From: Volvariella volvacea V23
Lineage: Eukaryota; Basidiomycota; Agaricomycetes; Agaricales; Pluteaceae
Reading direction: 5' to 3'
Assembly (NCBI GenBank): GCA_000349905.1
Contig: KB722769.1
Location: 73,046 to 137,045, forward strand
Length of the DNA stretch: 64,000 nucleotides
In this document: positions 9,546 to 64,000 of the stretch, piece after piece
Layout of the letters: each line of letters begins with the position of its first letter
Numbering within the stretch: position 1 is the first letter of the stretch
Notes under the pieces: generated by a model
What the model was told of the DNA's origin: nothing
Databases searched by the model: none
Seen by the model: only the letters and a program-made list of their open reading frames with translations
Translations under genes and position numbers: made by a program

Positions 9546-9992
9546 TCAACCCACAGGGTAAGTACCAAGCTCGTGGACGACTAAAACTCTGGTGCATCCG
9601 GCGTTGTGTGGATCGTCCAAAGTAGCGAAACGATTCTCCGACTCTTCTTCAAACATACACACCAAATCCTCCGCCTTCACTCCTGCATGATCCTTCCTGA
9701 ACCTCGTCACCATTTCCGGTACGTTGGAGCCATGCAGCACACTTGCAATTGTAAAGAGGCTGAATGTTTCCCCCCTCCCAGACCTAAAGAACGCCCAAAT
9801 ATTGAGGGTATTCAGTATGATCAATAAGACCATTGAGCCGATAACATGAGGCCGAGATGCAGTAAAGGCGGGCGCTTTTGTGAATGTCACCCCGCGTACT
9901 TTCACAGTGCCAAGGACACCACTCAAATAGGGTTTGGCGGCTGATAAAAGGTATTTCAAATACGTCGTGGTGATGTATTTTATCGAGTGTGG
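9546..9992 (-). pseudogene. Array copy A: C-terminal fragment of the tandem membrane-protein family
   Basis: Only the 3' part of the family's last exon is present. On the minus strand it reads ITTTYLKYLLSAAKPYLSGV, then the fourth membrane segment (HVIGSMVLLIILNTLNIWAF), FRSGRGETFSLFTIASVLHG, and the charged tail ending HELGTYPVG and a stop. Upstream of about 9992 the frame is interrupted and no ectodomain, N-terminal membrane exons or start codon can be found before copy B ends at 11593. The fragment itself is open and well conserved, which suggests fairly recent loss of the rest or a mis-assembled, gap-adjacent repeat (N run at 10802-10901). Confidence 0.8.
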
Positions 9993-11592
9993 AACTCACA
10001 CCAACAGCTCCAAGGTGCTGCACAGAGTGTCAAAGTTGATTGTGCTGCCATCAGCCGTCTATTCAATATAACATAGTGGTTTATTGCATCCCATTTAATT
10101 AAATTCCTCTCACCCATTACACCCTGAATTTCCTGCACTATCCCAGTGGCACAGCTCTTCATTCCATTGGGCAAGGCTGAAGTTAAGAGATTGGTACTGC
10201 AGTTTCTAGTGAAAAGGGATTGGACGTAGTCACTATGACCTCAAATGACTTGTAGAGGGCCACAGAAGTTGTATGGGTGCTGTTAGCCATATGCAGAATG
10301 TACTCAGGACTAGGTCATAGATGAGCATTAAAAGAGGGCATCAGAATGGGATGGTGTCTCAAAGCATGCTATTTGTTGTTTTGTAGTGGCAGACAAATAA
10401 TTACCTCAAAACTCATCACATCCAGACAATATGCTGACTTAATTGCCTGTGCCTGCTGAGGAGTGCAATTTCTACAGCTGACTCATGGTTTGAAGGGCAA
10501 TTCCTTGGCAAGTGATATATAGTGATGATTAACTTATACTTATTAGTACTACAATCCACATTATACCTTATAATTGTCTCTGACATGTATCACTGCCAGT
10601 GGACTCCTTACTTTGGCTGTTTGACAAGCTCAGCAATGCAGCACAGAAAAATGGTGCTGAAGATACCTTGCTGGCTTTTTTTGGATTGCTGCAGATATAC
10701 CTTGACAGTTTCAATATGAATGATACTTTTTAGGCAGCTTGATAATAAGGTTCCCTGTTGAGGAAAAAGCGAATACTCAGATTCTATTCCCAAGCGAAGA
10801 GNNNNNNNNNNNNNNNNNNNNNNNNNNNNNNNNNNNNNNNNNNNNNNNNNNNNNNNNNNNNNNNNNNNNNNNNNNNNNNNNNNNNNNNNNNNNNNNNNNN
10901 NCTAGTGGAACTGAAGATTTCGACTGATATATTGCGTAAGCGGTTAATTCTCCTTGAAAGATTGAACTAAGTGAGACATTACTTTGATATTTATAGTGTA
11001 TATCAATGTCAAGGAACAACGACCTATGTCGAACCTTGCAAATTGCATTGCATCAACAGTGTGTCTGACATCCCCCGCCATTTTTGGACCGCTCACCTCA
11101 GAACACATGAACCAATTTGACCGTTTGGTTGACGAGGTGGTACAGATTTTATCTGCAAAGTCACCAAATGAAAAGCAGCTGGCGGGACGGCGCTATTTCA
11201 ATTGGTTTGTTCACAAAGATTTATCAGAAGATTTATCCGAACATTACACTGCTCAATTGAGTAGATTGGAAAATGAGATTGGAAGGTTTGCGATTTTTAA
11301 TACAGGAGGTGAAGCAGCTTCTCCTTGAATTTGCCTATATGGTGGGGTAGGATAATACGGCGTTATGTAGATACCATGTATTGGTCCATTCTGCGAATTT
11401 TACAAGGTCGTGTATAAATTATAGTTCGTCGTTTTCGCAGACTACCGCTTTAGCCCCTCATACTCCACCACTTCAGATTATCCAACACCTCTACGAAAAA
11501 CAAACTCGTCTATGAATTTATGCAACATCGGAAAGCAAAGAATGATGTTGAAGGTATGTTACTGCATTTATCCCAAAATTCTCAGTCAGACA
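9993..11592. other. AT-rich stretch with gap; no confident gene
   Basis: AT-rich sequence between copies A and B, containing a 100-N gap (10802-10901). A 114-codon plus-strand open frame (10984-11328, containing LTSEHMNQFDRLVDEVVQIL and ending NTGGEAASP) reads like protein but matches no family I know; it may be a small gene or the end of one cut by the gap. Nothing else is recognisable. Confidence 0.5.
10802..10901. other. Assembly gap of exactly 100 N
   Basis: A run of 100 N, the conventional placeholder for a gap of unknown size. It lies in the AT-rich interval between fragment A and copy B, so missing family sequence here is possible. Confidence 0.99.
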
Positions 11593-13718
11593 TTAGTTCA
11601 AAGGATAGGTGCCTGCATCATGTAGAATCAAAACCCCGCATTCATCAGCATCACCTTGACGATCCAGTGTAGCAAAGCGACCCCTCGCTTCGCATTCAAA
11701 CTCATACTCCATATCCTCTGCGTTCACCCCCGCGTGCTCTCCTCTAACCCGTCTAACCTCCTCCAGTACATTTGAGCCATGCAACACACTTGCAGCCGTA
11801 AAAAGACTGAACACCTCCCCTCTACCAGACCGGAAGTACGCCCAAAGATTTATAATATTAAGAATTCCTAAAAAGACCGTCGAAGCGATGACATAACCCC
11901 GAGACGCCGTGAACGCAAGCACCGGTTCTGAAATTACTCCCTGAGTGAATCTATAGCCAAGAGCGCCCGTCATGTAGAATTTCATCGCTGATCGCAGATA
12001 CCGTGTGTACGCCTCTGTTATATCTTCTATATGCATCGGGTACCAAGTTCGAGCGGGAAATGTGCTGAGAGGCCCAGTGGAAACCTGGTCCCAACCGAAA
12101 ATCAAACTAGCCTGGATTTTTGATTCGGCAGGAAGTGGCTCTGGCGGTGTGGGACTTGTACCACGCGAGAGCTCGCGGAAGACGGTCGTGAAGAAGAGCT
12201 CTACCTGCCTCTGATGAAGATTACCCAGTGATGGTGTGTTTTTTAAAGGGGATACTACGATACTGCCTCCCTCGTTCCTTGCTTCAACAGTTTCAATGGA
12301 GAAACCTGGAGAGCATGCGAGAATTGCAACGCGAAACAGATCTGAACCGAAGGTTGGTATCGTTGAGAGATCGAGGGATACGGACCAGTGTGGGACGGAT
12401 GTCCGGTATAGGAGCGCCCAGACGGAATAGCCGTCTGAGGGGATATCGTTTGTGGTTGTATCCCAGATCGTGTACGACCCGTTCAAGGCGGCTGAAGCAT
12501 AGTGTATCTCAAAGGAGTAAAAATCGTCAACTGCAAGCCTTGTCGTTAAAAATAAGGCACAGGAGGTTCAAAATGACTTACGATCAGCACTCATGAATCT
12601 GGAAGTGAGATTTAGTGCAACGCCTAGTGACTCGTAGTGAGCGATTAAGGTCCCGTTAGTGAATAATCTTGAGAGTGGTAAGCCCTCCGTGTCCGTTTGC
12701 CACCAATTGCACACCGGGCGCAGTACAAAAGCATCGGTGACCCATCTGGAGAAGACCGTCGGTGAAAGACCAAGAGGGAAGGGGACGATGTACTCCAGGG
12801 ACTCAGAAGTCCGAATGGAAGGGTTAAAGGAAGAATTAGTGAGGTTCATCGCCATTTCGGCCCAGATTACCAGGGCCGCCTCTCGAAGTGTGTTGTTCAT
12901 GCCTGTACTAGGGATGTAATGTTGGTAAGTTGGGTATGTACGAAGAGTACTAGATGAGCCGTGCTTGATACGATCAATTGAAGGTAGTCATTGAGCGACA
13001 AATTACAGACCTGTTGTTGACAACTGCCACGGAATCGGGACCTATAGCTGCCACCATCCACATCGCCGCACCAGAATCGAGCATAACACGGTGAACAGAG
13101 ACTATTTAAAGTACGTTAGCCTGGATATCGAGCTAATAATTCATTCAGCTGAAGTACGAACGCGCAGCGGGTGCCAGTGCAGATATCGCTGTTACAATAA
13201 AGCCACAAAGAACCGCAATGATAAAATAAAGGCTACATTCTCGCTTTATGATAATGAGAAATGCAGTAATAGTTCCCAGAGAGCTCGAAGATACTGAATT
13301 TGCTGTGGCTAGATCGACGCCTCCAGGGCCACGGTGCTGTCCACCGCTGGACGTCCTCAAAAGGCGCATAAATTCTTCTCCCTGCCATCAATTTTGTGGG
13401 TGAGTTTCAAACGCTCAGTTATTGATTCGGCACACACCTTTAAATCAACGATTAGACTTTTCATTGGGTGCAGTGCCAATAAAATCGTCAAAATACTAAT
13501 GGTCGTAGTTCCCGACCTTATAGCCACTGTGAACCCTTGAGCCAGTTACTCTTGGGTAAATGAAGGTACTCGTGCTTACCCAAACTCTCAACACTATAGG
13601 TAGAGCCTGGCACCAGAACGGTACGGTATAGAACAAACCAACAGAATGAGAGATACCCCACAGATATAACTGGGAGCAAGGAGAGCCTAATATCACTGAT
13701 GAGCGTCCTCAATTTCAT
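11593..13718 (-). CDS. Array copy B: predicted four-TM membrane protein, unknown function
   Basis: Six exons on the minus strand, all open with GT-AG junctions in the family's conserved phases. Exon 1 (start ATG at 13718) encodes MKLRTLISDIRL and the first membrane segment (SVGYLSFCWFVLYRTVLVPG). Exon 2 holds the second (TISILTILLALHPMKSLIVD). Exon 3 begins GEEFMRLLR and contains the third (YFIIAVLCGFIVTAISALAP). Exon 4 is short (VSVHRVMLDSG). Exon 5 has TYPTYQHY, an N-glycosylation-rich stretch and the WVTDAFVLRPVCNW motif. Exon 6 carries FRVAILACSPGFSIETVEA, QIQ-type KIQASLIFGWDQV, the fourth segment (GYVIASTVFLGILNIINLWA), FRSGRGEVFSLF and the tail ending LHDAGTYPLN. No disabling change seen. 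Function and known domain: none recognised. Confidence 0.85.
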
Positions 13719-17767: not shown

Positions 17768-19864
17768 TCAATGAAGTGGGTAAGTGCCCTCTTCATGGAC
17801 AGTTAAGGCTCTTCCCCCGTCGCTGGCATTGTGATCCAAAGTAATGTAGCGGTTCCTGTATTCATCTTCGAACTCGCGCTCCAATTTCGTCCCTTCCGTT
17901 GGTTTATCCTCTCTAAACCTCGTCACCTCTCCTGGTACATTCGATCCATCCATAATGCTCGAAACCGTAAAAAGGCTGAACACCTCCCCCTTCTGTGATC
18001 TGAAAAACGCCCAGATATTTAACACGTTCAGAATAGCCAACAAGACCGTCGAAGTAATAGCGTAAGCTCGAGATGCCGTAAAAACGAGAGTTGGGCTGCG
18101 AATTATCCCAGGTAGTGTCTTGTTTCCAAGAATGCCTGTCAGATAGGGCTTGGCGGCCGATTGGAGGAAGTTTGAATACATTGCGGTGATGTTGGGTGTT
18201 GGCATTGGTCTTAATACTACTTTGTCCCCCGAGTTGTAGTTATACGTATCGATAGATTCGAGCTGATCCCAGCCCACGACCAGGCCGATTTGAACTGGTG
18301 TGCTTGTGCCACGTCGTCCTACGATGAATGGGGTCGCGGGTCGTGAAAGTTCATCGAAAAGTGCTGGGAAAAAGAAATCTGATTCTCTCCAATCTAGATT
18401 GCCCGGTAGAGAGTCCTGGCTGTTGTGGCTGAGTGATCGGAGGACAGTGATATCCCTCCCATTGTTTTGTGCCTCGACAGTCTCGATGGTAATGTTAGGA
18501 GAACATGCAAGAGCGGCCATATGCCATTTAGTCTCTTCGGCGTCAAAACCCTCAACAATCGGAATGCCTGTTAAATCGAACGACAGCGGCGTATCGATTT
18601 CTGGGAAATGTATGAGTATCCAGACGGAATACCCCCCTTCAGGAACATCTTCACTGGCGGTGTTGAAAATCATAAACTCGCCATCAAAGGCTGAAACATA
18701 ATACATAAAATAGTTGCGGTGTTCATCAACTGTAACAGAATTAGGTAGCGGTTGGGCTTAACTAATGACAGCTCACTTTGTGCTGGGCCAAATGTTGCAT
18801 TAAAACTGATATTCAGTTTCGGAAGAGTTCCCGCCAGATCCAGCGTCTGAGATACGCTGAGTTCAGTTGGAATTCTGATATCGCTTGATTGCCAATCGCA
18901 CCAAGGGTGCATCACGAAAGCATCTGTAATCCATTTGGTAGAGATGTCGTAGGAGAGATTGGTTGGGAGTGGAATGAGGTACTGAGGATCAGATGAACTG
19001 AAGGAGTAGTTAACATTCAAGATCCCTTCTGCCCATACAAGTGAAGCCGAGTGTTGAAGTCTGCTCCACATTTCATTTGTGAGTAGACGTTGTCGATAGA
19101 TTGGATTCCGATAAATGTATCTGAGTTGCGATTAGGGAGATTAAAATTTTCATGATAAAGATGAATACTGACTGCAAGCTATTCACAGATAAAGCAGGAA
19201 TAGCCGCCACTTCAAAGGTCGTGTTATAGGAATCAACCACGACATCATGCACAGACACTTCAGTGTATTAAGTGTCAACTCAATTCGAATAAAAATACCA
19301 CGCATATTACTTACATGCAGCGGGTACGAGTGAAGAGGTTGCCTTGGCGATGAAACCAAAAATGAACGCAACCACAAACCAGATGCTACAGCTCCGAGAA
19401 ATGAGGATCGGGATCGTTTTCCATATTCCTAATGACGTCGATGATAGTGAATTTGCGGTGGCAACAGTTAGGCGCTTGTTCCTATCTTGCAACTTCAGCA
19501 CGCGTACGAATTCCTCTCCCTGTCTCTGAGTTCAGCGTATCGAATCGCTTAGGAAGGGTGTTGCGGCAACAAACTCTGAGATCAGCAATAAGGCTTCGAA
19601 TTGGCTGCAATGCCAACCCAATAATGACAATATTGACTGAGGTAACTACAGACTTCACAGTTGCTATACATTAATGGTCTATATGTTGACAACCACACAA
19701 AAGCGGTAGCACTTACTGAAATTATCCGTGGATGTGTCAATGAACCTCGACACGGGCACCGGAACGACACGATATTGCACAACCCAACAAAACGCGAGAT
19801 ATAAAAATGATAGGATGGGGAGTGGAAGTAACTTCAACACGCTCACGACTGTGTCTAAATTCAT
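17768..19864 (-). CDS. Array copy C: predicted four-TM membrane protein, unknown function
   Basis: Six minus-strand exons, start ATG at 19864 (MNLDTVVSVLKLLPLPILSF). Membrane segment 1 contains LYLAFCWVVQYRVVPVP; segment 2 VNIVIIGLALQPIRSLIADL, whose exon ends at a less usual GTTTGT donor. Exon 3 begins GEEFVRVLK and carries segment 3 (WFVVAFIFGFIAKATSSLVP). Exon 4 is SVHDVVVDSYNTTFEVAAIP; exon 5 has WITDAFVMHPWCDWQ. Exon 6 has YYVSAFDGEFMIFNTAS, ALACSPNITIETVEAQN, segment 4 and a tail ending TVHEEGTYPLH. The ectodomain carries several N-x-S/T sites. C, D, G and J share EGGYSVW-type and FRSxKGEVFSLF-type sequence, which separates them from B, E, F, H, I and K. A decayed RRT8-like fragment lies upstream (20828-21028). 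All junctions keep frame. Confidence 0.83.
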
Positions 19865-20827: not shown

Positions 20828-20845
20828 CTACCCCATTCTACCCCA
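20822..20845. repeat. Short tandem repeat (10-mer, about 2.4 copies)
   Basis: Two full copies of a cccattctac unit plus a partial copy. It coincides with the point where the RRT8-like relic loses similarity to the intact gene, so it may mark a deletion junction. Confidence 0.8.
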
Positions 20846-21028
20846 TGTGAAGAAGAGTGCGAGAGTAACTATAGATACTGTCAGAGGTAGGATACAAGAT
20901 AGCAGAGGCGGATGGAGCCATTCGTGAGCTAGTAGGAACGGAATGGAATATGGCACGTAGATGAACGAACAATTGGGAAGAGTTTGGAGTGATACTGGTG
21001 GGTACAATAGAGGCGTCATCTGCAGCAT
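20828..21028 (-). pseudogene. RRT8/EI24-like relic 1 (5' part of exon 1), upstream of copy C
   Basis: On the minus strand this reads MLQMTPLLYPPVSLQTLPNC, then IPFLLAHEWLHPPLLSCI and VSIVTLALFFTWG, and stops. It matches the first 75 or so residues of the intact gene at 47723-48919 (TTPLLYATPHPPVPLQSLPN, IPYLLAHTWLHPPLLSRI, VSLVTLALFFTF). The rest of the gene is missing. Same strand as copy C, whose start lies about 960 bases downstream. Confidence 0.85.
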
Positions 21029-21387: not shown

Positions 21388-23704
21388 CTAACCGTTACCG
21401 TTCCATAGTGAGCCAAATTCATAATGTAACGTATACAGCAGTTGCGAGCATACAAAGAGACTATTGAAACCTAAAAACGAATCATGACATCGCACGCATT
21501 CTCTCGTATAAAGCACAGAAGGGGAAGCAGGAACCAATGACTCCTTTTCATCCACGTCGTCCTGATTGTTCAGGGTGTCCCCCAAGCATAGGGTGCCCTT
21601 ATTCAGGGTAATGAAGCGCTCTCCTGATGTCTTCTCGAATTTGGCAAGCAAATCCTCTTCACTGGCATTTCGTTTCGCGTTTTCCCTAAAATGTCTGATC
21701 CCTTCTGCTACGTTCGAATCATGCAACAAGTCTGCAACGGTGAACAAACTAAACACCTCTCCCTTTGTGGACCTAAAAAATGCCCGAATATTGAGGATGT
21801 TCAAAGTCAGCAACAGAATCGTCGAAATAATAGCATATGTCATAGATGCTGTGAAAGCGAGTGTGGGTTTGTATATTATTCCAGGTACTTGGGTCGTGTT
21901 CAGAGCACCTGTTAGGTAAGGTTTGGCAGCTGATTGAAGATACCTCGCATACGTTGCGGTAACGTCGCGTATTGGGAAGGATGACCATTCTGCGTCATCG
22001 GACCTACGACTGAATCCAAAGGTGCTGATGTCGGGAATATTGGTGATGGCTTGGGAATCGACGCCGTGGTAGCCGTTGAAGCTGAAGGGTGGAGGTAAAT
22101 TTAAAGTATAATCTAGCTTAATGGTTTCAACTCGATCCCATCCAAAGATGAGACCGGTCTGAACTTGTGTGCCTGACCCATGTAGTCCTAGGAGGGATGG
22201 GGTTGCTGTATTTGGAGGTTCATCAAGAAGTGCGGTGAAGAAGCGATTGGCTTCACTCTGATCTAGATTACCCTGTCGGCCATCGGCTATGTGCTGTTGG
22301 ATGGTGATAACCCTCCCCTCGTTCTGCACCTTAACGGTCTCGATGGAAAAATTAGGATAACAGGCGAGAGTGGCAATACTAAATCGTCCTCCGTCTCCAG
22401 GAGTGGTCGGCACATCTGTGAGATTGAATGATAGGCCAGAGGTGCGCAGCTCATCTTGTATGAATGCCCAGACGGAATACCCTCCTTCAGGAACATTGTC
22501 ACTAGTGGTGTTGAAGCTGGTAAAATAGCCATTGTAGGCTGAGACGGAGAACATCGCGTAGCTAATAGGCGAGGAATCACCTGTAGCAGGATTAGGTAGA
22601 GGAGAAGCCCGACTAATGACGGCTCACCGTGTAACGAAGAATTGTATGAGCTCACAAAACCGATGTTCAGTTCTGGAAGAGTTCCATTCAACTCCAGTTT
22701 CCCATCATCGTCTAGGTCAATCGATAGTGTTAGATTGCCTGACTGCCAGTTGCACGAAGGGCGCATCGCAAAGACATCTGTGACCCATGTGGCAGACATG
22801 TTGTAGAAGAGATCTGTTGGGAGCGGAATGAGGTACTGAGGGCGATCAGAAGACTCAGAAGAAGGCTCTGCTGGACTAAAGGAGTAATTGACACCCAAGG
22901 CTGCTTCTGCCCATACAATTGAAGCGGCATGCTGAAGTGTTCTCCTCACTCCCTCATTAGGCGAATAAGCTTGATAGGTTGGACTGTCGTTAAAATCTCT
23001 GAATTATAGTTAGAGACGAAAGTTACATTGAATAACGAAGCTAAATACTGACGATCGCAAATCCCAAGGCGAAGCAAGGATTGCTCCTACATCAAAGGTT
23101 GTATCATTAGATTTAAGAAAGACTTCGTGCACGGTCACTTGTAATGCGTTAACTTTCAATTCAATTCAAGTAGAAGACGGTGCATATGATACGTACATGT
23201 AGCAGGAGCAAGAGAAGAGGTCGCTATCACCACAAAGCCAGAAATGAATGCGACCAAAAACCAGAAGCTACAGCTCCAACGAAGGAGGATTGGGATCGTT
23301 TTCCATATTCCTAATGAAGCGGATGATAATGAATTTACGTTGCCGATAGTTATGCGCCTGCTTTTATCTTGCGAATTCAGCAAGCGCAGGAATTCCTCTC
23401 CCTATCTCTAAATTTAACCTATCGAATGGCTTAAGATGCGCAAGCATACCTTGAGATCGGTAATGAGGCTTCGAATTGGTTATAGTGCCAACCCAATGAT
23501 CACGATATTGATCGTGGTGATTCCAGACTTGATAGACACAAAGCACTCGTACTCACTGAAATTCTCCGTAGATGTATCGATGAACCTAGACGTGGGAACC
23601 GGAATGATACGACCTTGCACAATCCAACAAAATGCGAGATATAAAGATGATATGATAGGGAGCGGAAGTAGTTGCAGCACGCCCAAGACTGTGTTTAGTT
23701 TCAT
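21388..23704 (-). pseudogene. Array copy D: membrane-protein family member with one nonsense codon
   Basis: All six exons can be read from ATG 23704 (MKLNTVLGVLQLLPLPIISS), with exon 3 GEEFLRLLN, segment 3 WFLVAFISGFVVIATSSLAP, exon 5 WVTDVFAMRPSCNWQ and exon 6 from MFSVSAYNGYFTSFNTTS. Exon 2 carries an in-frame TAA (complement of 23480-23482) inside membrane segment 2, where copy C has Gln in GLALQPIRSL. Nothing else disrupts the frame, so this is either a young pseudogene, a sequencing error or a polymorphism. The ectodomain has an extra stretch (VDSQAITNIPDISTFGF region) absent from most copies. The C-terminus departs from the usual tail after DDVDEKESLVPASPS and ends in a hydrophobic extension. 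RRT8-like relic 2 lies upstream at 25615-26015. Confidence 0.8.
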
Positions 23705-33379: not shown

Positions 33380-34660
33380 TCAACCTACTGGATAAGCATC
33401 CACACTGTGGGCAATCGAGGTTCCGTTTCTACCTCCGCTGGTGCTATTAAGGCCATTCAATGTGACGTAGCGGTTTCTATGCTCATCCTCAAGCCTGCTC
33501 TCCAGTCCCGTCCCCTTCATCAATGGATTCTCCTCTTCAAACCTCTCTACCTCTTTTGGTATATTGGACCCATCGATGACACCCGAAATCGTGAGAAGGC
33601 TAAATACCTCTCCCTTTTCAGACCTGAAAAACCCCCCAGATGATTAGAATGTTCAGAATCGCCAACAAAACCGTTGAAGTAATAACGTATGCTCGAGACG
33701 TTGTGAAAATGAGTGTTGGTTCGGATACTACCCCAGGTACTGGTGCGGTACCAAGAGCACCCAGCAGGTATGGTTTGGCGGCAGATTGAAGGTAGCTCGA
33801 ATACATTGCCGTGATGTTGGATATTGGCATGGGTGACCACGGTACTCCGTCCAATGAGGAGTAGTATGTAAAATCCCCTTGATTGAAGGTCCCAACCTGA
33901 TTCCATCCAAAGATAAAGCTGGCTTGAATCTGCGTGCCAGAGCCACGAACTCCAAGAACAGATGGGGTTGCTTCCCGCGACATTTCGCTGAAAAGCGCTG
34001 TGAAAAAGAGATCTGCTTCTCTCGTCCAGGTTACCCTGTCGTTGATGTGGGCCATTGGTGTCGCCATTTGGGGTGATAACAATGATCTCCTTCCCTTTGT
34101 TGTATGCTTGAACGGTTTCGATGGCGAAGTTTGGAGAACACGAAAGAATGGCGACGCGCAGGAACGGGCCTTAGCGGAAACATCAAAGGCCGGTACTTCT
34201 GTGAAATCAAATGACAAGTGTGATTGGCTAATTGGCAAGGATTGCATGAATATCCAGACAGAATGACCTCCCTCGGGAATCCCACCCGTAGTAGTGTCAA
34301 AGCTCATGAACCTGCCCTGGTATGTTGAGGCATATAACATCGCAAAGCCGAACGTGTTATTAACTATAGCGGATGTCAAACTTGATCAAAGATGGCTCAC
34401 TTAGCGAAGAATCAGCATGGTAAATCAAGACCGATGTTTAATGATAAGAGAATTACAGTCTCTCGGTTTCCAAAGAAGTCGGACATTCCGATTGACTCTG
34501 TGATATTGGTCGACTGTCAACTGCACGAAGGTTGCATTACGAATGCATCTGTAAACCATTTTACAGACTCGTTGCACGAGAGATTGAGAGGGAGTGGGAT
34601 GAGGTACTGAGGGCGATCTGGAAATTCGGCAAGATTCAACCCTGCTGGCCATGTGACTTG
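33380..34660 (-). pseudogene. Array copy G: truncated, multiply broken family member
   Basis: Only exon 5 (partial) and exon 6 are found; no exons for the first three membrane segments exist upstream. Exon 5 (PQYLIPLPLNLS, VKWFTDAFVMQPSCS) has a TGA replacing the conserved Trp of the PxCxW motif. In exon 6 a missing base after AKAR shifts the frame through the CSPNFAIETV core, and a second small deletion at DER restores it (READLFFTALF). A run of six G at the TM4 end adds one base, ending the frame at WGVFQV. The remaining tail (FRSEKGEVFSLLTISGVIDG ... AHSVDAYPVG) follows in another frame. It groups with copy C in sequence. Confidence 0.9.
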
Positions 34661-34873: not shown

Positions 34874-36877
34874 TCAAGGGTGGTTATCGGCATCGTGAAG
34901 AACTAAAACCTCGCTTTCACCCGCATCATCCCGATGATCCAGAGTGATGAAGCGATTTTTCAACTCCTTCTCGAATTTGTTCTGCATATCCTCCACACTC
35001 CGCTCCGTATTCTCCTGCCTAAACCGATCCACCTCTTCTGCCACATTCGAATCGTGCAATAGGCCCGCAATAGCAAACAAGCTAAACACCTCCCCCTTAC
35101 CAGACCTGAAGTATGCCCAGATGTTGATCGCGTTGAGCACGACGAATAAAGCTGTCGAAGCGATCACATAGCCTAAAGGTGCAGTGAAAGTGGGTATCGA
35201 TCTCCTGAAAAGCGTATCTGCTTCACCCAAGGCGCAACTCATATAAGATTGCGCGGTGTTCTGTAGCGCGGTTGCATATGCGGATGAGAGGTCGAAGATG
35301 TTTCCCTCCTGAACGAGAGGTAGTACAGTTTCACTAAACGATGAGTCGTTGCAGAGGAGAGTCGAGAAGAAGAACTCTGCCTGTCTCTGGTCCAAGTTCC
35401 ACCCTCTGTTGTCAGGCCACGTAGGAGATATGGACAAGACGGACTCTTCGATTGCCACTTCAACGGGCTCGATGGAAAATCCTGGAGTACACATGAGGAT
35501 TGCGAAGCGCAGCGAATCTGTGCTGAACGTCGGTAACCATAGTGCCATGTCAAAGGCCCGGCTGGAACTCTGGATTGTCATTGCCCACACGGACCATCCT
35601 CCTGATGGAACGTCATCCGTAGTGGTATTCCAGATCGTGGACCGCCGATCTAACGACTCTGAAACGCATTGCATGTCGAAGAGATACGACTCATTATCTG
35701 GAATAGACTTTGTCATTGAAAAGTACGATACAGAATCAATCCACTGACAACTCACAGAAAGGGCGTGAAGGGTTGAGATTGAACGAAATAGCCCGCGATC
35801 GAAGATGGAAATCAATGGTCCCATCCGGCAAATGTTCTAAGCCCGACGGCTCTGTCACATTAGGTAGCCAGCTGCATATGGGGTTCAATGCGAATGCATC
35901 TGTCCACCATCTAGCAGACACCACGCGTGGAGATGTTCTGGGAAGTGGGACAACATATCGGAGGAAAGTGGCACGCAAATCGGAGCGGAGAAAACTGTCT
36001 AACAGTTCTGAACCACTCGAAGATGGATCTATTCCCGAGGTCAATTGCCACTATATCATGGGAAGAGGTTTGGATGTCACTTGTCATGTTATCGTTGAAT
36101 TTATAACGTTGGTAGGTTGGATGGAAGTCGGGGATGCTAGATTTTGCATGTTATACAATGGACCTCAATCACAAGATGACGCCAGAGTACTGACCTACTA
36201 TCTATAGCTGCTACAGAGTCAAGATACATGGACCCCACGTAAAACGTGCCTAATTCATTAGGAAGGTCTACAAGCTTGATGAAAACTGTTGGAAACACGA
36301 TAAATCCATAACTAGCCTCCATTGTATCACTCACGTGTAGCTGGAGCCAGCGCGGATATCGCCATTACAATAAAGCTTGAGACAATCCCCACGGAAAAAT
36401 GAAGGCTACATTTGCGTTTGAGAACCATGGGGACTGAACCCAGCATTCCTAGCGAACTCGAAGATACTGAATTTGCTAGGGCAAAACTAACACCTCCTGG
36501 GCTATGGTGTTTTTCACTGTTGGAGTTCCTCAACAAGCGGATAAACTCTTCTCCCTGTCATTCATTTGCTGAATGGATTTAGAAATGAAGATATTTTTTA
36601 CTACACACCTTTAAGTCAGCAATAAGACCCCTCATCGGCACTGTTGCCAAAAAAATCACCAAAATATTAACCGTCGTTAATGCGGGCTGTAGGATCCCTG
36701 TGAGAGGCTGAGATGGTTACTTTTAGTTCAGCACAACTGTTGGTACTCACTCAGAGGCACATAGCCTGGTACTAGGACAAGGCTAGATCGTGCAGCCCAA
36801 CAGAAGGATATATACAGAATGGATATAACCGGAAGCAGAAGCAGCTTCGATACCTCAACAAATGTCTTCAAATTCAT
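34874..36877 (-). pseudogene. Array copy H: family member with a 1-nt frameshift in exon 5
   Basis: Start ATG at 36877 (MNLKTFVEVSKLLLLPVISI). Exons 1-4 are open: segment 2 NILVIFLATVPMRGLIADL; exon 3 GEEFIRLLRNSNSEK with HFSVGIVSSFIVMAISALAP. Exon 5 begins in the expected frame (FHPTYQRYKFNDNMTSD), but after SSHDIVA one extra base (near 36053) moves the conserved part (LTSGIDPSSSG, RWWTDAFALNPICSW) into the next frame; the original frame reaches a TAG. Exon 6 is open (STIWNTTTDDVPSGGWSVWA to LHDADNHP) but lacks the QIQASLIFGWDQV block present in nearly all copies and has a shorter ectodomain. A (TGG)7 run lies in the upstream region. Sequencing error remains possible. Confidence 0.75.
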
Positions 36878-38568: not shown

Positions 38569-40700
38569 TCAACTCAAAGGGTAAGTACTTGCATCATGGA
38601 GAACCAACACTCCTCGTTCATCCACATTGTCCCGATGATCTAGGGTAATGAAGTGATTCTTCGATTCCTCTTGAAACTCATGTTCCATATCCTCCGGCTT
38701 TAATCCTGCATGGTTCTCCATAAACCACCTCACCTCTTCTGGCATATTCGAACTATGCAATACGCCTGCAGCCATGAACAGACCAAATACTTCCCCCTTA
38801 CAAGATCTGAAGTACGCCCAGATATTGATCGCGTTGAGCGCTATTAATAATACTGTCGAGGCTATCACATAACCACGAGATGCCACGAAGGCGAGCACCT
38901 GCACCGATATTATTTCAGGCACCTCTGCGGTACCCAGTGCGCCAGACATAAATGGCTTGGTCGCTGATAGCAAGTATGTCCGATATATCCACGTGATGTA
39001 TTCTGCGTCTGCTGGAACCCATTTCATATGATCTGAAGAATAGTTCTCATCGGTGAACCACCTGATTTGATCCGGTCCAAAGATTAAGCTCGCCTGGATT
39101 TGTGATCCAACGCCGGACGGTAATCCCGGGATTTTGGGGCTCTCCCGTGAAAATTCGCAGAAGAGAGCGGTGAAAAATAGCTCCACCTGCCTCTGGTCCA
39201 AGTTATGTTGAGGCACGACCTGAGGCACAGGAGTTACGAAGAGGTTGGACCCCTCATCCCTCACTTCGACTGTTTCAATTTCAAATCCCGGTGAGCATAT
39301 GAGAATGGCAAACCGAACTGAATCGATACCGAATGTTGGTACAGACGTCATGTCGACAATCAGGGGAGAAGATTCGGTTGACGTCCGTTCCACTATCGCC
39401 CAAACAGAATATCCTCCTGAAGGGACATCGCTCGTAGAAGTGTCCCAGATTGTGAAGCGACCATTCAAGGCCATTGAGGCGTAATGTATTTCGAAGACGT
39501 AGGATTCATTATCTTATACACATGTACCAATTAATAGGGATGAAATGAGCGGATCCAGAGATGACTCACTAACGGTGCCTATAGAATCCAGGTTGAAGGC
39601 GATACCGCGTGACCGATCATAAAAAATTATGGTTCCATCCTCCAAGTATTCGAAACTTGATGACTCTGTCGTATTTGATTGCCAACTGCATATGGGGTCT
39701 AATGCCAAGGCATCTGTGACCCATAGAGTGGAAAATTCGAGCGGAAAATCAAGAGGGAATGGGACAACAGACGAATAAAATAGGTAGCGTGGGTAAGTGT
39801 ATTGCAGGCTCCAGGTGTAAGTCATGTTCATGGCTATTTCCGCCCATGTTATAGAGACAGCGTCTTGAAGCTTGCCTCTCATCTCAGGTGTAAGTGTGTA
39901 GCGTTGATACATTGGAGGCAAAGGGGAAATGCTGAAATAGAGCAATACATTCAGTGCCCACATTGAGCAGCATAATCATTGGAATTCTGACCTATCGTTC
40001 CTGATAGCCACAGATTCGGGACTTACAGCTCCGACATAAAGCGGAAGCACGTCAACATATTCGAGCGTAATGATCTGGACGGAAACTTTCGACATATTCA
40101 GAAAGCCGAACTGCTTATAACCTTTACTAGGTGCTTACGCGCAGCTGGTGCAAGTGCAGATATCACCATCACTATAAATCCGGAGCCAACTGCAACAGCA
40201 AAATGAAGGCTGCACTTGCGCTTGATAATTATGAGGAGTGCGGTAAATGTTCCCAACGGACTCAAGGATAGAGAATTCGCCGTTGCAAGATCGACGCATC
40301 CTGAACCGCGGCGTTTTTCATCTTTGGAGCTCTTTAGCAGGCGGATAAACTCTTCCGCCTGTCATCCATCCTATGAATCAATGCTGCAAGCCTAGGTACT
40401 GACAAGCGCCCACCTTGAGATCAACGATTAGATTTTTGATTGGCTGCAATGCAATCAAAATCACCAATATGCTGATGGTCGTAATTCCAGACTTGATAAC
40501 GCCTATCAGCAATGGAGCTCATCATCGCCAGTTCAACAAAGAGATGAGAGCACATGCTTACCCCGATTTTCAAGCTCAAACGGAGAGCGCGGTACTAGGA
40601 CAGTACGCTTTTGCACAACCCAACAGAAGGTAAGGTATATCACAGATATGACTGGCGGCAGGAGGGTCTTTAATATTCCAATGAAAATTCTAAATTTCAT
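38569..40700 (-). CDS. Array copy I: predicted four-TM membrane protein, unknown function
   Basis: Six open minus-strand exons with conserved splice phases. Exon 1 from ATG 40700: MKFRIFIGILKTLLPPVISV, YLTFCWVVQKRTVLVPRSP. Exon 2: GVIKSGITTISILVILIALQ. Exon 3 begins AEEFIRLLKSSK, with Ala replacing the usual first Gly, and has segment 3 HFAVAVGSGFIVMVISALAP. Exon 4: VSVQIITLEYVDVLPLYVGA. Exon 5: YQRYTLTPEMRGKLQDAV and LWVTDALALDPICSWQ. Exon 6: FEIHYASMALNGRFTIWD, ILICSPGFEIETVEVRDEG, HNLDQRQVELFFTALF, SQIQASLIFGPDQI, segment 4 (GYVIASTVLLIALNAINIWA), FRSCKGEVFGLF and a tail ending LHDASTYPLS. It is the last minus-strand copy before the central block. No disabling change seen. Confidence 0.85.
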
Positions 40701-49331: not shown

Positions 49332-51500
49332 ATGAAATGGGACACGGTCGTGGGCGCATCGAAGCTACTTCCACTCCCCATCCTATCGTTGTCATATCTT
49401 GCATTTTGTTGGGTTGTACAATATCGCGTCGTTCCACTGCCGGCTTTTAGGTTCGTTGACACATCCCCAGAAAACTTGAGTGAGCATATGTGCTTTACCC
49501 GGTGATCAACTAGTACTAAATTAGTGTCGACAGCGACTATAAAGTCGGGAATCACGACGATCAACATCGTTATCATTGCATTGGCACTACAGTCAATTCG
49601 AAGCATCATTACCGAAATAAGGGTATGTTAATGAGTGAAACCTCCTTTCATATACCATTATAGCTGAGCGCTGAACTTTTGATATAGGGAGAAGAATTCA
49701 TCCGCTTGCTAAGACTAAACCGAGATGGTCGTTCCAAGCCTGTGACTGTCGTCGACGCAAACTCGCTATCGTCACCTTCATCGGGAATGTCCAAGAGATC
49801 CCGATCCTCCTTGCCCAGAACTGTAGTTCGTGGTTTGTGGTCGCGTTTATCGCCGGTCTCCTCGTGACGGCGACCTCTTCGCTCGCTCCTGCTGCGTGTA
49901 AGCACCATATTTGTGGAGTTTTACTTGAATTGATTGGAGATCGATGCGTTGACAGTGTCCGTGCATGAAGTCATGCTTGACTCCTATAAGACAACCTTTA
50001 ACGTGGCAGCCATGCCTGCTTCATCCGTTGCTCCGACAAGTCCAGAGTTGGTATCGAGCCTCATCCTAGGATAAAAATTCAATCTCCCTGACTACGTTCC
50101 AGTGCCTCCGATACAGATCCGCTCCATAAACGGCGCCGACTCACACACCCAATGCGAAGCAGACTCCAGCACGCCGCGTCATTCGCATGGGCGGAAGGAG
50201 CTCTGAATCTCGACTATTCCCCTAATCTCATCCGCCACCATTCCGGGTCCTCAGTACCTTGTTCCACTCCCGACCAGTTTCTTTTACGATATGGATGTCA
50301 GCTGGGTTACAGACGTCTTTGTGATGCGCCCCTCGTGCGATTGGCAATCAAGCAACGCGACGATGTCGATTAGGCAGGATGACGACATGAGGCTGGGTGT
50401 GAATGGGACCCTTCCAGAGCTGAACATCGGTTACGCGTTGTCCCTCGATCCGTCGCAATGTGAGTCGTCATTATCTGGGGTTCAACGATACATAATCTTG
50501 TTATAGATTTAAACACGCTTGCTTGTGTTATGTTCTATGCCTCAGCCTCTGATGGCGAATTTAGTAGCTTCAATACTGCCACAGGCGACGTCCCCGAAGG
50601 GGGCCATTCCGTCTGGGTCTTCATCCAATCCGTCATCTCGCAGAACCGCCCACTCGGGGCGCTGTTCAATTTCACAAAAACACCCACCTTTGACTGTGTT
50701 GGAGATCTCGGACTCCCAGTGCACCTCGACGTCGCCATTCTTGCCTGCTCTCCAAACCTTGCCGTCGAGACCGTCGAGGTGCAGAGCAAGGGGAGGGATA
50801 TCACCATCCTCCGCCCACATCCTTCGCGACAGGGCAACCTAGACCAGAGAGAAGCCGATCTCTTCTTTACGGCACTGTTCAGCCCCCAGCCTCCCAACGC
50901 GGCGACTGCGCTCGCTCACAGCGTGACCTGCCCAGGCCCGCAAGTTCAGGCCGGTCTCGTCTTGGGTTGGGATGTGCTTGGAGACTTTGATGAACACCAT
51001 GGCGTTGCAAGGGAAGTGAGATTTTCACCCATGCCAATAAGCGACATCACGTCGGTGTATGCGAGATACCTCGAGTCGGCCACCAAACCGTATCTTGCAG
51101 GAGTTCTCGGCACGGCACGAGTGCCTGGGACGGTGCTCGAGCCGACGCTCGTTTTTGAAGCGTTTCGCCCATATGCCATTGCTTCCACAATCCTGTTGAC
51201 GATTCTCAATATTCTCAGTATCTGGGCATCTTTTAGGTCAGAGAAGGGCAGGGTGTCTAGTCTGTTCACTGCGGGGTTGTTGCATCTTTCGAGTGTAGCG
51301 GAAGAGGTGAGGCGGTTTAGGGAGGATAATGCGAAGCTGAATGAAGAGGACACGCTGAAAAATTTGAAGAAATATTAGGGAATCTCTGAGTTGCTCTGGA
51401 TTGGGGCACGCTAGGCATAGTTCAAGACATCCCGAACAATCGGGGCGATGTGGGCAAAAGGGAGCTGTTGGTTCCTGCTCCCCCATTGGCTGTTTCACCT
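49332..51500 (+). pseudogene. Array copy J: family member with several frameshifts
   Basis: Exons 1-2 are open from ATG 49332 (MKWDTVVGASKLLPLPILSL, TTINIVIIALALQSIRSI). Exon 3 starts GEEFIRLLRLNRDGR but loses one base after SPSSG, so membrane segment 3 (WFVVAFIAGLLVTATSSLAP) is in another frame and the initial frame reaches a TGA near 49868. Exon 5 starts RLQHAASFAWAEGALNLDYS and then shifts again before QYLVPLPTSFFYDMDVSW and WVTDVFVMRPSCDWQ. Exon 6 is a long clean frame (MFYASASDGEFSSFNTATGD to EEDTLKNLKKY, stop at 51378); the tail beyond it (DVGKRELLVPAPPLA, to about 51500) is in a further frame. It retains LACSPNLAVETVEVQSKG and segment 4. Type resembles C, D and G. The upstream RRT8-like gene is intact, unlike at other copies. 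Confidence 0.85.
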
Positions 51501-53218: not shown

Positions 53219-55334
53219 ATGAGGTTTAAGACGTTTGTTAACATACTGAAGCTCTTCCTTGCACTGACTATGTCTGTGGTATATCTATCAATTTGTTGGA
53301 TTGTACAACACCGCACTGTCCTGGTGCCCAGCTATTCTTATTTTGCTTCTTCTTACTACGTATACGTTGAACATCTGGGTGAGTGTGAACAGTTTTGGTT
53401 ATGATGAACTAAACCAGTCGCTTTCAGAGCTCATAAAGTCTGGAATCGCCACCATTAACATCTTGACAATTTTGCTGACATTGTTGCCAATCAAGAGTCT
53501 CCTTATGGATCTCAAGGTGTGCAAAATTTCGATGAACACACCCAATTTTACCTCCTGAATGAATGACAGGGAGAAGAATTTATCCGCTTGTTGAGAAGGT
53601 CCAGCAGTGAGCAGCACCGTGGTCCTGGTGGCACAGATCTTGCCACAGCAAATTTAGTATCCTCAAGTTCGCTGGGAATACTGGCCGCAATCCTAATCAT
53701 TCTCAAGAAAAGGTGTAGCTTCCATTTCGTCGTTGCAGTTGGTGCAGGTTTTATTGTAACGGCAATATTTGCACTGGCGCCAGCTACACGTGGGTACTTG
53801 TGGTGGCATTGTGTGTATTCGAACTGATGCACCTTGTTTCCGACAGTTTCTGTTCGAGTTGTTATAGTCGACTATCTAGACCCATACCCGCGCTACGTGG
53901 GATCTATGGATCCATCGTCTGTGGCGGTCATCAATACTAGGTCAGTATTTTGGTTCCATTTTCAATCAGTGAGCATGACCATGTAGTCCAAAATTCATGC
54001 TGCATACCCAACGTATCAGCGCTACATGCTTACATATGATGTCAAAAAACGACTTCAAATGGCTGCCTCCATGGGCGGGAACGGCTATGAACTTTAGCTA
54101 TTCCTTCGGCATTTCCAATGCCAATCCGAGCTCAGAATTCCCCAAATACATCATTCCGTTTCCTATCAACTTCCCGCCCTCGACCTCAGCTATATGGACC
54201 ACAGATGCCTTCGCGCTCCACCCAAATTGCGGTTGGCAGCAGCAGGATGCGACAAATTCCTCATCCGTAGAATATCTTTATGAAAAAACTATTGCTTTTC
54301 ATGGTCGATCACGAAATATTGCCTTCAATTTTGACTTGATCAGTGACATTGGTAACTCATCCCCTAAAATTGCCTGACCACACAACTTTTAACTAGGAGA
54401 TGTGCTAGGTAACGAGCCCGACGCCTTTGAGATATTTTACGCCTCAGTGTCCCTGAATGGGAGTTATACCATCTGGAACACCATCACTAACGATGTTCTC
54501 TCAGAGGCTTATTCAGTCTGGGTAATTGTGTACCGAATTACTGACATGGGCGGAATCTTCGCGTCACGGAATGTACCAACATTCGATCCCCACACTCTTC
54601 GTCTCGCCATCCTCATGTGTTCTCCTGGCTTTTCCATTGAGAGCGTTGAAGTGAGGAACGAGGGAACAAACCTTATCATCTCTCCTTCAAATAACTCCAC
54701 GCAGCTGGACAGCTTGGATCAGAGACAGGCAGAGTTATTCTTCACGGTTCTCTTGCGCGACCTACCACAATATACAAGTCCAAAGATGCTAGGATTACCC
54801 TCTGGCACGTCGCAAATACAGGCCAGTCTGATTTTCGGTTGGGACCAAGTCGCAATGTTGGATAGCATGGATGATGGCACAGGAATTTGGATGCCGTACC
54901 CATTGTCATTGCAAAACATCACAGATGCGTATGCGACGTACTTACAATCAACTTCTAAGCCCTATATGAGCGGGGTCCTAGGTGCTGCGAAAGCACCCAG
55001 AACAATATCCAAACCAGCACTCGCCTTCACGGCGTCTAGGGGTTATGTAGTTGCCTCCACAATCTTATTGGCGGTACTCAACATGATCAACTTCTGTGCA
55101 TACTTCAGGTCTAGCCGAGGGGAAGGGTTCAGCTTATTCACAGCTGCGGGCGTATTGTACAATTCGAACGTACCGGAAGAGGTGATGCGGTTTAGGAAGA
55201 AGTATGCGGGATTAAGGGCAGAGGATATGGCAGATGAATTTGAAGAGGAATCGAAGAATCTGTTCATCACCCTGGAATATCGAGACGACGTGGATAGAAG
55301 CGAGTTTCTGGTTCTCCACGGTGCAGCACATTGA
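53219..55334 (+). CDS. Array copy K: predicted four-TM membrane protein, unknown function
   Basis: The clearest plus-strand model: exons 53219-53378, 53428-53516, 53570-53789, 53847-53940, 53987-54351 and 54397-55334, all GT-AG, giving 621 residues. Segments lie near residues 10-30 (LFLALTMSVVYLSICWIV), 60-80 (INILTILLTLLPIKSLLM), 133-153 (HFVVAVGAGFIVTAIFALAP) and 525-547 (VVASTILLAVLNMINFCAYF). Ectodomain motifs: IWTTDAFALHPNCGWQQ, LMCSPGFSIESVEVRNEG, SLDQRQAELFFTVLL, SQIQASLIFGWDQV, KPYMSGVLG. The tail is charged (EVMRFRKKYAGLRAEDMADE). The start of exon 5 is odd: the family's YPTYQRY sequence is present in the DNA but one frame off, and a small deletion at PPWAG restores the family frame, so about 27 residues are out of register although the gene stays open. 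RRT8-like relic 4 lies upstream. Confidence 0.85.
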
Positions 55335-55344
55335 CATACGCAAG

Positions 55345-55545
55345 GGGTATCCGGTCAGACACCCAACCCTACATAGCAGGTGTTCTCGGTACCACACAAG
55401 TGTCAAGCATAAAATCTAAACCAAATGAGGTGAAGCGTTAGGGAGAAGAATACAGATATGAGGGAAGAATATTTGGAGCACGGGTTTGAGGATGACTTGA
55501 GGAGTTGGTTCATTAGTTTGGATTATCTGGACAGCACAAGTGGAG
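55345..55545 (+). pseudogene. Array relic K2: C-terminal remnant lacking the fourth membrane segment
   Basis: Right after copy K, the DNA encodes QPYIAGVLGTTQVSSIKSKP, which matches the pre-TM4 sequence of the family (KPYLTGALNTTQVPGIIYKP in D), and then directly EVKR and, one frame on, MREEYLEHGFEDDLRSWFIS, which matches the tail (EEVRRFRE..., RFITLD). The whole fourth membrane segment and the FRS-GEVFSLF block between them are deleted and a frameshift follows. It is a fourteenth family locus. Confidence 0.78.
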
Positions 55546-60013: not shown

Positions 60014-62310
60014 ATGGCAGTGACGACTTCCGTCAAGGCGCTCTTGCTTCCGATTGTGTCTATTGCGTATCTAGGATTTTGTTGGACAGTATACAACAAT
60101 GTCGTGTTGGTGAATGGCCACACGCTCATCGACACCTTTCCAGAGAACCTTGGTAAGTGAAAGCATTTTCGATTTCAAGGTGCGCTAATGTCGGAAATCT
60201 ACTAGGTGTCTTAAAGTCGGGCATTACCACAATCAACGTCTTGGTCATTGCCTTGGGATTGTGGCCAGTTAAGACGCTGATCACTAATNNNNNNNNNNNN
60301 NNNNNNNNNNNNNNNNNNNNNNNNNNNNNNNNNNNNNNNNNNNNNNNNNNNNNNNNNNNNNNNNNNNNNNNNNNNNNNNNNNNNNNNNATCAAGGTATAA
60401 ATTCCCTGCTGTGCTTGTTGGTTTGTATAGTTCTGATTATCCACGCTACTGGCAGAGTGAAGAGTTCTTTCGCTCAATAAATCGATCCAACAATGGTGGT
60501 ACCGATGGCACGAAGGGCGTCGATCTCGCTACAGCATATTCGTTATCTTCACCCACACTCGGGGCATTGGATACGATTGGGATAATTTTCAAGCAACGCT
60601 GCAGCCCCTACTTTTCTGTGGCATTTGCTGCTACCTTAGTTGTTATGGCGGCATCTGCACTAGCTCCAGCTGCACGTAAGGGTGACATCATACAATAATA
60701 GCAAAAAAAAGCTGACTTAAATTTACTCTTCAATCTTTGAAGTATCTGTGCACAATATCGTTCGTCATACCTACGTTACGGACCTCGAAGTGGCAGCAAT
60801 TCCTCCTTCATCCGTGGCTATGGATACGTGAGTGTGTATTTGGATATAAGTGATTCCCTTTCATTGATCCCTTTGGTTGGCATTACTTTAGTTCATTGTT
60901 CAACTCGTCCAACTACTTTCGGTACATGTTCACTCACAATATGGAGAATAAGCTCGAAGAAGCTGCCTCAATTACCTGGGCAGAAGCGGCTTTGAACGTC
61001 ACTTATTCTTTTAGCGTCGCCCATTCCAGCCGCGGACCCACCGACTCCCTCCATTATATCGTCCCACTCCCTATCGGCGTCTCGCCCACAGCTTCGGCTC
61101 GTTGGTTGACGGATGCTTTCGTGATACAACCTTCCTGTAGCTGGAAGGAGACTAATGTCACAGGAACCGTCGCTTTTGAGGACATTACAAACGGTATGAT
61201 TAATTCTGCCACTCTGGCTATTCCCGATTTGGATATAGGTCTTCTGTTGACCTTACGCGCCCGACCCAGTAGGTCCTTTTACAATGCGCATGTCTTCATC
61301 GCTTATTATTTGCGCCAGCTGAAAAGATCAGTATTCAGCACGCTTCCACTGACCATGTGGGCGCAACTTTTAGGGCATTCAATATTAGCACGGAAGATAT
61401 TGCCTCCGGTGGACACTCGATCTGGGTAGTCTCACAATACCGCTCGAGAGCAGGTGCTACAACAGTACCGGAGATCATACCAGAGATTGTGACATTTGAC
61501 TGGACGATACCCACGTTTGCGGTAAACTTCGACGGTGACGATGGTGTATTACATGTCGCAATCCTAGCATGTTCACCCAACCTTTCCATCGAAACAGTCG
61601 AGGTACAGAACCAGGGTATGGGGCTCACGATCTCTCGCACCAGTGACTTGCCTACTTCCGGCATCAACGGTCAAGTGCCACGACAAGGGAATATTGACCA
61701 GAGAGAAGGGGATAGACTTCTTATGTCACTATTCACACAACTCGGACTGGACACAAGCCCAGCTATTTTATCGTCTTGGAACGAAGGCTCACAAGTACAA
61801 GCAAGCTTAATTTGCGGCTGGGATCGAATCAAATCGGAATCGGAGAATCCTCTCCTTGAATTAATGGGCTGTATACCCATGCCGATTTCGAATATCACAG
61901 CAATGTACACCAAATACATCCAATCAGCAGCCAAACCCTACATGACCGGTATCCTTGGTACTTCCAGGGTACCTGGCGTGATATCTGAAAAGGTCATGGC
62001 TTTTACCGTATCTTTCCCTCATCTGATTTCTGCAACAATATTGTTGGCGTTCCTGAATATTGCAAATGCTCTGTCACTCTTTAGGTCCGGGAAAGGACAG
62101 GCGTTCAATTTCTTCACAATCGCCAGTGCGTTAAACCAATCCAACGTACCAGCAGAGATGGCAAGGTTCAGGGGCGAGAATCCGAAGTTGGAAGGCGAGG
62201 AATTACATCGCATTTTTGAGGATGCATCAAAAAATCGGGTTTTGACGCTGGGTTCACGAGACAACGGGCGCGCTGTTGTTTTGACCATTCATGATCGTGA
62301 TACGATCTAA
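60014..62310 (+). CDS. Array copy L: predicted four-TM membrane protein (gap in exon 2)
   Basis: Start ATG 60014: MAVTTSVKALLLPIVSIAYL, GFCWTVYNNVVLVNG. Exon 2 (KSGITTINVLVIALGLWPVK) runs into a 100-N gap at 60289; after the gap ATCAAG and a GT donor appear, which fits the usual end of exon 2, so little coding sequence may be missing. Exon 3: EEFFRSINRSNNGG and segment 3 (YFSVAFAATLVVMAASALAP). Exon 4: SVHNIVRHTYVTDLEVAAIP. Exon 5: RYMFTHNMENKLEEAASITW, RWLTDAFVIQPSCSW. Exon 6: GATFRAFNISTEDIASGG, AILACSPNLSIETVEVQNQG, GNIDQREGDRLLMSLF, SQVQASLICGWDRI, KPYMTGILGTSRVPG, segment 4 (LISATILLAFLNIANALSLF) and a tail ending TIHDRDTI. The exon 5-6 junction is the least certain. L and M share a distinct N-terminus (LLPIVSIAYLGFCWTVY) and form a third subtype. 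Confidence 0.82.
60289..60388. other. Assembly gap of exactly 100 N inside copy L
   Basis: Placeholder gap in the second exon of an array gene; repeat-induced assembly failure is likely. Confidence 0.99.
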
Positions 62311-62943
62311 TTGCTATACCTTGTACATCCCAGAATTTGATGTTGTTTATACTCACGCACTGGTAATTCTGAAGCATTGCGGTCTGGTGTGCAAGCAGCG
62401 ATCTAGGCCATGTTAAAACAGCATCCTAATAAGAAGCACTATTATCAATCTTACAATATGGTAACTGGTCCCTGTTACTGAACAAGACCGCAGGAAGCCT
62501 GGAATAGTAAGTTGTATGCAAGTTTGGTTTGAGGGTTGCGTTGAACAGCTGTGGTGTAGACAAAATTATGTCAAATGCCATATTAACACAGGTCAGATCA
62601 TGCCGTTTCCCAGTCGTCGGCTCTGAAATACAGCTTAATGGCATCGCCCTAAAGCTCTGGATTTGTGCTGTCGTTTCAACAACATCGGGATGTAGGGGAT
62701 CTTGACTTTTTAAAGGTCAGGTGAGTATGCTCCCTGGTTAGTTTGACTTGGCAAAACGGATGCCAAGTGACTCCCTTGGTTTGAGGTCCTGGCTTGCCTT
62801 CTTTGTTATCTTCTGATGTCTGAGCCATTCGTTGTCATCGTGGCTATACGTTAGCTCATGGGACGTACTAGGATATCAACTACCTTCCCTAGCGGGTCCC
62901 TTTCCATATAAACCGGCATGGTATTCACACAAAATACGCAACC
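62311..62943. other. Intergenic between copies L and M; no gene seen
   Basis: Presumed promoter of copy M. No RRT8-like relic or other recognisable sequence. Confidence 0.5.
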
Positions 62944-64000
62944 ATGGCACTGACCCTTACAATCGCTTTGAAGCTGCTTCTACTCCCTATTGTGAGCATC
63001 GCATATCTGGGGTTTTGTTGGACTGTCTACCATCGCACTGTTTTGGTAAACGGGCGCGGGTTAATCAACACCTCAGCAGAGGGCCTTGGTGAGTCGGTAT
63101 TTTGTTGATTTAGAGCGTACTGAATTTCTTCAAGGCGTAATAAAGTCGGGAATAACCACCATCAATATTTTGACCATTGCGTTGGGGTTATGGCCGGTTA
63201 AAACACTCCTCATGGATGTGAAGGTACGTGCTTGCGCTCACTTTTTTGCTTAATACCCACTTCGTGGACGCGTACTAGGGTGAAGAATTTTTTCGTTCAT
63301 TGAGGCGATCCAGTGCTGGCAGCAGCAGCAATCCTCGGGGCATCAACCTCGCCACTGCCCATTCTATATCTACACCATCACTTGGGGCATTTGAAACACT
63401 AACTATCATTTTACAGCGTCACTGTAGCCTCTATCTTACCGTGGCTTTTATCACTGGATTTATTATGATGGCTACCTCGGTGCTAGCCCCAGCTGCATGT
63501 AAGCGTCACGAGATTTGTCATCTAACAGTCCGAAGCTAACATGTTGTATGGCCTCTAAATTTCTCAGTATCCATACAAGAGGTTATGTGTGACTTAAATG
63601 AAACTACCTTTGAAGTGGCGGCTATGCCTCCTTCGTCCGTTGCTGTATCTAGGTAATCCTTTAAAGCTCCGCTGATCACGAGGCATTTGTTACGTGCTAA
63701 TTCCTATTTTCAGCACGACGGGTCTCTCATTACCCTCTTCTCAGTACTATCTTACCGATAGGATGGAACGTAAACTTCAAGAAGCTGCCTCTATTACTTG
63801 GGCAGAAGGTGCTTTGGATGTCGTACATTCCTTCGAGGTCAACGGTGCTCGTTCGAAGTTTGCACCATCTGACCCTTTTCGATATATTGTTCCAATCCCT
63901 ACCAACCTTTCACCTATGATTCCAGTCCGTTGGTTTACAGATGCCTTCGTATTGCAACCATCCTGCAGCTGGCAGGAAACCAATATATCAGGAACGGTCC
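62944..64000 (+). CDS. Array copy M: predicted membrane protein, cut by window end
   Basis: Start ATG 62944: MALTLTIALKLLLLPIVSIA, then YLGFCWTVYHRTVLVNGRG. Exon 2: VIKSGITTINILTIALGLWP. Exon 3: GEEFFRSLRRSSAGSSSNPR and segment 3 (LTVAFITGFIMMATSVLAPA). Exon 4: SIQEVMCDLNETTFEVAAMP. Exon 5 starts STTGLSLPSSQYYLTDRM, ERKLQEAASITWAEGALD and includes RWFTDAFVLQPSCSWQ; the window ends inside exon 5. All visible exons are open and in the family's phases. Closest to copy L, including the TINIL-ALGLWPVKTL segment 2, and lies next to it in the same orientation, which fits a recent tandem duplication. Confidence 0.85.

Follow-up and report, generated by a model that had tools for sequence, protein, structure and literature searches.

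What kind of protein is encoded by a long run of similar genes in a cultivated mushroom, and what has driven its expansion? We examined a 64-kb window of the Volvariella volvacea V23 genome (contig C34, GenBank KB722769.1, positions 73046-137045; assembly of 35.4 Mb in 54 contigs), in which a reading made from the sequence only had described a fourteen-locus tandem family of four-span membrane proteins. Using a custom spliced aligner and a profile built from 15 family proteins, we identified 14 family loci in the window. Eleven are full-length models, defined as those with a profile score >1000 and counting one that continues beyond the window edge, and three are relics. The family is real and undescribed, and its evolutionary kind is ordinary. 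The best-supported reading, which we put forward tentatively, is a single agaricomycete family of glycoproteins that cross the membrane four times and carry a binding domain on the outer or lumenal side; old rounds of tandem duplication and loss would have driven its copies apart.

The locus count agrees with the sequence-only reading down to its smallest member, a 29-residue relic (55337-55423) that fits the one it had called K2. This relic was missed by tblastn at E 1e-4; its profile score is 85.8, where the maximum over 120 control stretches was 49.6. The motifs quoted earlier are present on both strands where they had been placed, and relaxed forms of three of them have 11, 8, and 11 occurrences within the window, compared with none in 100 first-order Markov resamples. 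A shared structure of six exons with identical splice phases had also been proposed, and the exact pattern (intron phases 1-0-1-2-1) holds for 19 of the 24 full-length models across the genome and for 8 of the 11 in the window, that is, in most copies and not in all. One of the three window models that depart from it (60017-62304) crosses a run of 100 N. There are two such runs in the window, at 10802-10901 and 60289-60388, probably assembly gaps, and the second lies inside that family gene.

The array overruns the window at both ends, so that the earlier description was right about the window loci and short on extent. Translated searches with three family queries gave matches on C34 from about 23 to 197 kb, and we count at least 30 loci including relics and fragments over 173 kb, 22 of them with full-length models. 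This count is a lower limit because parts of the surrounding sequence read N. Contigs C36 and C8 carry a single family locus each among the candidates scored (72 of 81 and 68 of 99 in the two genome searches, so that relatives may be missed), bringing the genome-wide totals to 32 loci and 24 full-length models. Copies described earlier as open are so in part. Those at 11.6, 17.8, 38.6, 53.2, 60.0, and 62.9 kb are lesion-free where sequenced and have an in-frame start codon; in this assembly, those at 21.6, 27.0, 34.9, and 49.3 kb are interrupted by a stop or by frameshifts, and the search for a start codon found none in the gene models at 27.0 and 29.7 kb.

The proteins share one order of parts: after three membrane helices at the N terminus come a long, beta-rich ectodomain and a fourth helix, and a tail of about 65-85 residues ends the chain. 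By hydropathy, exactly four segments are found in 8 of 10 proteins, and 3 and 5 in the remaining two; the earlier four-span assignment is supported. In the 9 of 10 proteins in which both helices 2 and 3 were detected, the loop between helices 3 and 4 is 365-404 residues long and acidic, with a lysine plus arginine fraction of 0.02-0.06, compared with 0.09-0.15 in the loop between helices 2 and 3. By the positive-inside rule, this distribution favors a topology in which the helix 2-3 loop and the tail would be cytosolic and the long loop would face the lumen or the outside. Counted over their whole length, the proteins have 8-13 N-glycosylation sequons each, and the long domain is probably N-glycosylated.

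We obtained an AlphaFold2 model of P0002, the database counterpart of the last gene in the window, from 29 input sequences. Its mean predicted local distance difference test (pLDDT) score is 77.6 and its predicted template-modelling (pTM) score is 0.65; many blocks of the ectodomain reach a pLDDT of 85-96, and one loop drops to about 41. The model has four long membrane helices, in line with the hydropathy, with helix 3 continuing into a long strand (152-169), another long strand (525-541) running into helix 4, and a tail built from two strands and short helices. Of the alignment columns, numbered by P0002, 68 are conserved in 27 or more of the 31 sequences, and the ectodomain residues C264, C393, W253, W266, P240, and P242 are present in all 31, as is C25. 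The two ectodomain cysteines may form a disulfide that holds the long domain. As the earlier reading had supposed, no named domain was recognized: none of 21 members gave a Pfam match better than E 0.05, and searches of the PDB by sequence or fold returned no convincing match.

A first protein search listed 10 proteins, nine of which (P0001, P0003-P0010) are Volvariella volvacea WC 439 entries called 'hypothetical protein' AX16_*. These belong to the same family, have counterparts among the loci described here, and are publicly unnamed. A profile search then added one Rhizopogon and one Suillus protein among the matches listed, and a second profile search gave 14 proteins among the matches listed, 8 of them assigned to Suillus, Rhizopogon, and Melanogaster (Boletales hypothetical proteins P0011, P0013, P0014, P0016, P0018-P0020, and P0022). 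The nine Boletales-type proteins in the alignment have 29-32% identity to P0001. The four Boletales proteins that we examined differ from the Volvariella ones in having a CxxxC pair in the ectodomain (all four) and a 61-113-residue stretch before the first helix (three of four). As scoring in the protein searches was limited to the 7999 and 7998 candidates with the most words in common, relatives may be missed and other fungal orders may well carry the family. In a maximum-likelihood tree with an outgroup of 7 of the 14 proteins from the second profile search, including five named Boletales, all 24 full-length Volvariella models fall on one side of a branch with 100/100 support. Boletales homologues together with a single Volvariella clade mean that, within this sampling, the family is wider than one lineage and its expansion took place on the Volvariella side. 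The earlier term "lineage-specific" therefore describes the expansion and not the family.

The copies have diverged far from one another. For the dN/dS and tree steps we used the 24 of 32 loci with a profile score >1000. These models average 0.42 in pairwise identity, and the two most similar ones reach 57%; the 15 closest pairs have nonsynonymous divergence (dN) of 0.31-0.40 and synonymous divergence (dS) of 0.84-1.90, three being saturated. This identity ceiling and these dS values indicate that the radiation is old, and selection appears mostly purifying. Relics and lesions among the copies point to birth and death, as proposed before, and clustered copies, one clade, and decayed members together are those of a lineage-expanded tandem family. 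Mean identity by region is 0.495 in the N-terminal helices, 0.365-0.406 in the ectodomain, 0.572 in helix 4, and 0.384 in the tail. The ectodomain had been called the most variable part; it varies more than the membrane helices do, yet no more than the tail. The insertion and deletion reported in the ectodomains of the 21.6-23.7 kb and 34.9-36.9 kb copies, respectively, were both recovered.

We compared the ten database proteins with the copies in this genome. Nine have a counterpart at 86% identity or higher, and P0007 has one at 80%. Over comparable stretches, residue differences are 0-0.2% in five pairs, 1.3-3.0% in three, 6.9% for P0004, and 14.7% for P0007, all of these being lower limits since aligned stretches of <60% local identity and columns flanking gaps were skipped. 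The closest copies of P0007 and P0004 in this genome are those at C34:196591 and C34:58935. Polymorphism of the kind expected of allorecognition genes could be present in these last two of the ten pairs, whose differences may reflect divergent alleles or other paralogues, the two being inseparable there. In the most different pair, P0007, the ectodomain differs at 62 of 327 residues (19.0%) and the N-terminal helices at 15 of 124 (12.1%).

How far do these data support an outward binding domain? Three points make the case for recognition: the topology, the number of copies, and the way paralogues differ more in the ectodomain than in the helices. A role in surface sensing or recognition is compatible with the topology, the sequons, and the expansion, and the ectodomain may recognize something outside the cell. 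In such a mechanism, the plasma membrane or the secretory pathway might be where the proteins reside. The ectodomains might bind different partners, such as cell-wall material, other hyphae, microbes, or ligands; copies would have diverged in binding target while retaining the membrane part, and tandem duplication and loss would tune the repertoire.

Several observations weigh against this reading. Among close paralogues dN/dS is about 0.2-0.4, a ratio that is rough at such high dS, and the tail is as variable as the ectodomain (0.384 versus 0.365-0.406). Between strains there is no clear ectodomain excess: pooled over the ten pairs, the ectodomain differs at 108 of 3542 residues (3.05%) and the N-terminal helices at 37 of 1403 (2.64%), and in P0004 the order is reversed (26 of 375, 6.9%, versus 13 of 138, 9.4%). 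The helix 2-3 loop is charge-balanced and not strongly basic. Finally, structure searches with the models found no solved structure that offers a convincing binding fold for the ectodomain.

The main rival explanation, which we consider rather unlikely, is a housekeeping endomembrane family that handles lipids, wall polymers, or proteins in the endoplasmic reticulum, Golgi, or vacuole and was expanded by dosage or drift. The low dN/dS favors it, as do the five of ten WC 439 protein pairs that differ at no more than one compared residue and the persistence of single copies on two further contigs. Dosage hardly explains two dozen full-length copies with so low a mean identity and a maximum of 0.57, and few fungi yielded relatives among the matches listed from the word-limited searches. 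If the housekeeping explanation is correct, this is still a protein family meriting a domain-database profile.

A more specific form of the binding-domain reading, which we regard as improbable, is that the array is a repertoire of hyphal contact or ligand receptors, in which a glycosylated, beta-rich ectodomain would serve self/non-self or microbe recognition and some loci would hold divergent alleles. The Agaricomycetes would then be using a membrane-protein fold that has no solved relative. To our knowledge, few surface receptors are molecularly known in mushroom-forming fungi, and about two dozen full-length genes, mostly in one array of a cultivated mushroom, are well-defined candidates for a part in surface sensing or recognition.

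It is also quite unlikely that the family represents a basidiomycete offshoot, now highly diverged, of the ascomycete DUF3176/DUF3433 membrane proteins, the second of which we take to be PF11915. The arrangement found here, three helices followed by an ectodomain and a further helix, resembles the layout of DUF3176 (PF11374), but 0 of 21 members match PF11374 or PF11915 at E up to 10, in a search in which most weak matches are removed by the HMMER filters. A search of this genome with the DUF3176 profile found nothing, which tells little because control genomes were equally silent. CWR-2, an allorecognition protein of Neurospora crassa, carries two PF11915 domains and eight transmembrane regions in all (PMC9550227). 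It sets a precedent for allorecognition by fungal multi-span membrane proteins, and its helix number is twice that of the present family, which differs in having four helices, one long loop, and no PF11915 match. Another mushroom membrane protein family, reported without a known mechanism, is that of SNB1 'snowball', with seven transmembrane helices and DUF6533 (PMC10949477). The family described here has four helices, and no DUF6533 match was found in 21 members. Very improbable is a channel-like or sensor unit with the four helices as an S1-S4 bundle and a polycystin/mucolipin-like outer domain: the fold search aligned only 112-146 of 649 residues, and its usual best Z for models without a match is 7-8, Foldseek gave 9eba at E 1.6 and a TM-score of 0.06, TRPML1 was absent among the 50 listed entries for a low-confidence paralogue model, and the four membrane helices leave none for a pore, which in TRPML/polycystin-mucolipin channels has helices S5-S6.

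Table 1. Loci of the membrane protein family in the window (window coordinates; TM, transmembrane segment).
Feature	Position	Strand	Remarks
Relic, C-terminal part (TM4 and tail)	9570..9992	-	Profile score 435; 100-N gap 10802-10901 nearby
Family gene, six exons, without lesion	11608..13718	-	Counterpart P0009, 1 of 610 compared residues different
Family gene, six exons, without lesion	17783..19864	-	Spliced profile model
Family gene; one in-frame stop near TM2; first intron unrecovered; insertion after IFGWD motif	21601..23704	-	
Family gene with phases 1-0-1-2-1; frameshifted once at a T run; without clear start codon	27029..29105	-	
Family gene with phases 1-0-1-2-1; without identified start codon	29715..31762	-	
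Relic covering the ectodomain through the tail; model with three frameshifts plus an in-frame stop	33455..34657	-	
Family gene; ectodomain deletion and one frameshift in model	34886..36877	-	
Family gene, six exons, without lesion	38584..40700	-	Spliced profile model
Family gene, six exons, two frameshifts in model	49332..51351	+	Counterpart P0010
Family gene, six exons, without lesion	53219..55325	+	Spliced profile model
Relic, 29 residues, adjoining the 3' side of the 53219..55325 gene	55337..55423	+	Fits K2 of the sequence-only reading
Family gene across 100-N gap (60289-60388); sequenced part without lesion	60017..62304	+	Counterpart P0003
Family gene without lesion, running past the window to contig position 138193	62953..64000	+	Counterpart P0002 (structure predicted)

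Other genes lie among the family members. An EI24-like gene (47723-49201, +) directly precedes the family gene at 49.3 kb; the assignment comes from a PF07264 Pfam match on the WC 439 counterpart P0010, and the one open frame tested in this genome, 47666-48538, gave no Pfam match at E 0.01. The public model of P0010 fuses this EI24-like gene with the family gene, and public annotation of the array therefore needs care. Fragments with 70-77% identity to the EI24-like gene occur at 20843-21031 (-) and 32447-32870 (-), upstream of minus-strand family genes. The recurrence of this neighbor upstream of family genes suggests that some duplications carried both genes, with the EI24 part then decaying. 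A weaker EI24-like similarity (33-42% identity) is seen at 51575-52243 (+), behind the 49.3-51.4 kb copy. Two family genes flank a portion of a flavin amine oxidase gene at 16328-17065 (+; PF01593, E 1.3e-13), and the open frame 44965-45489 (-), which by eye contains the motif ELGGKSP, presumably corresponds to part of an aldehyde dehydrogenase.
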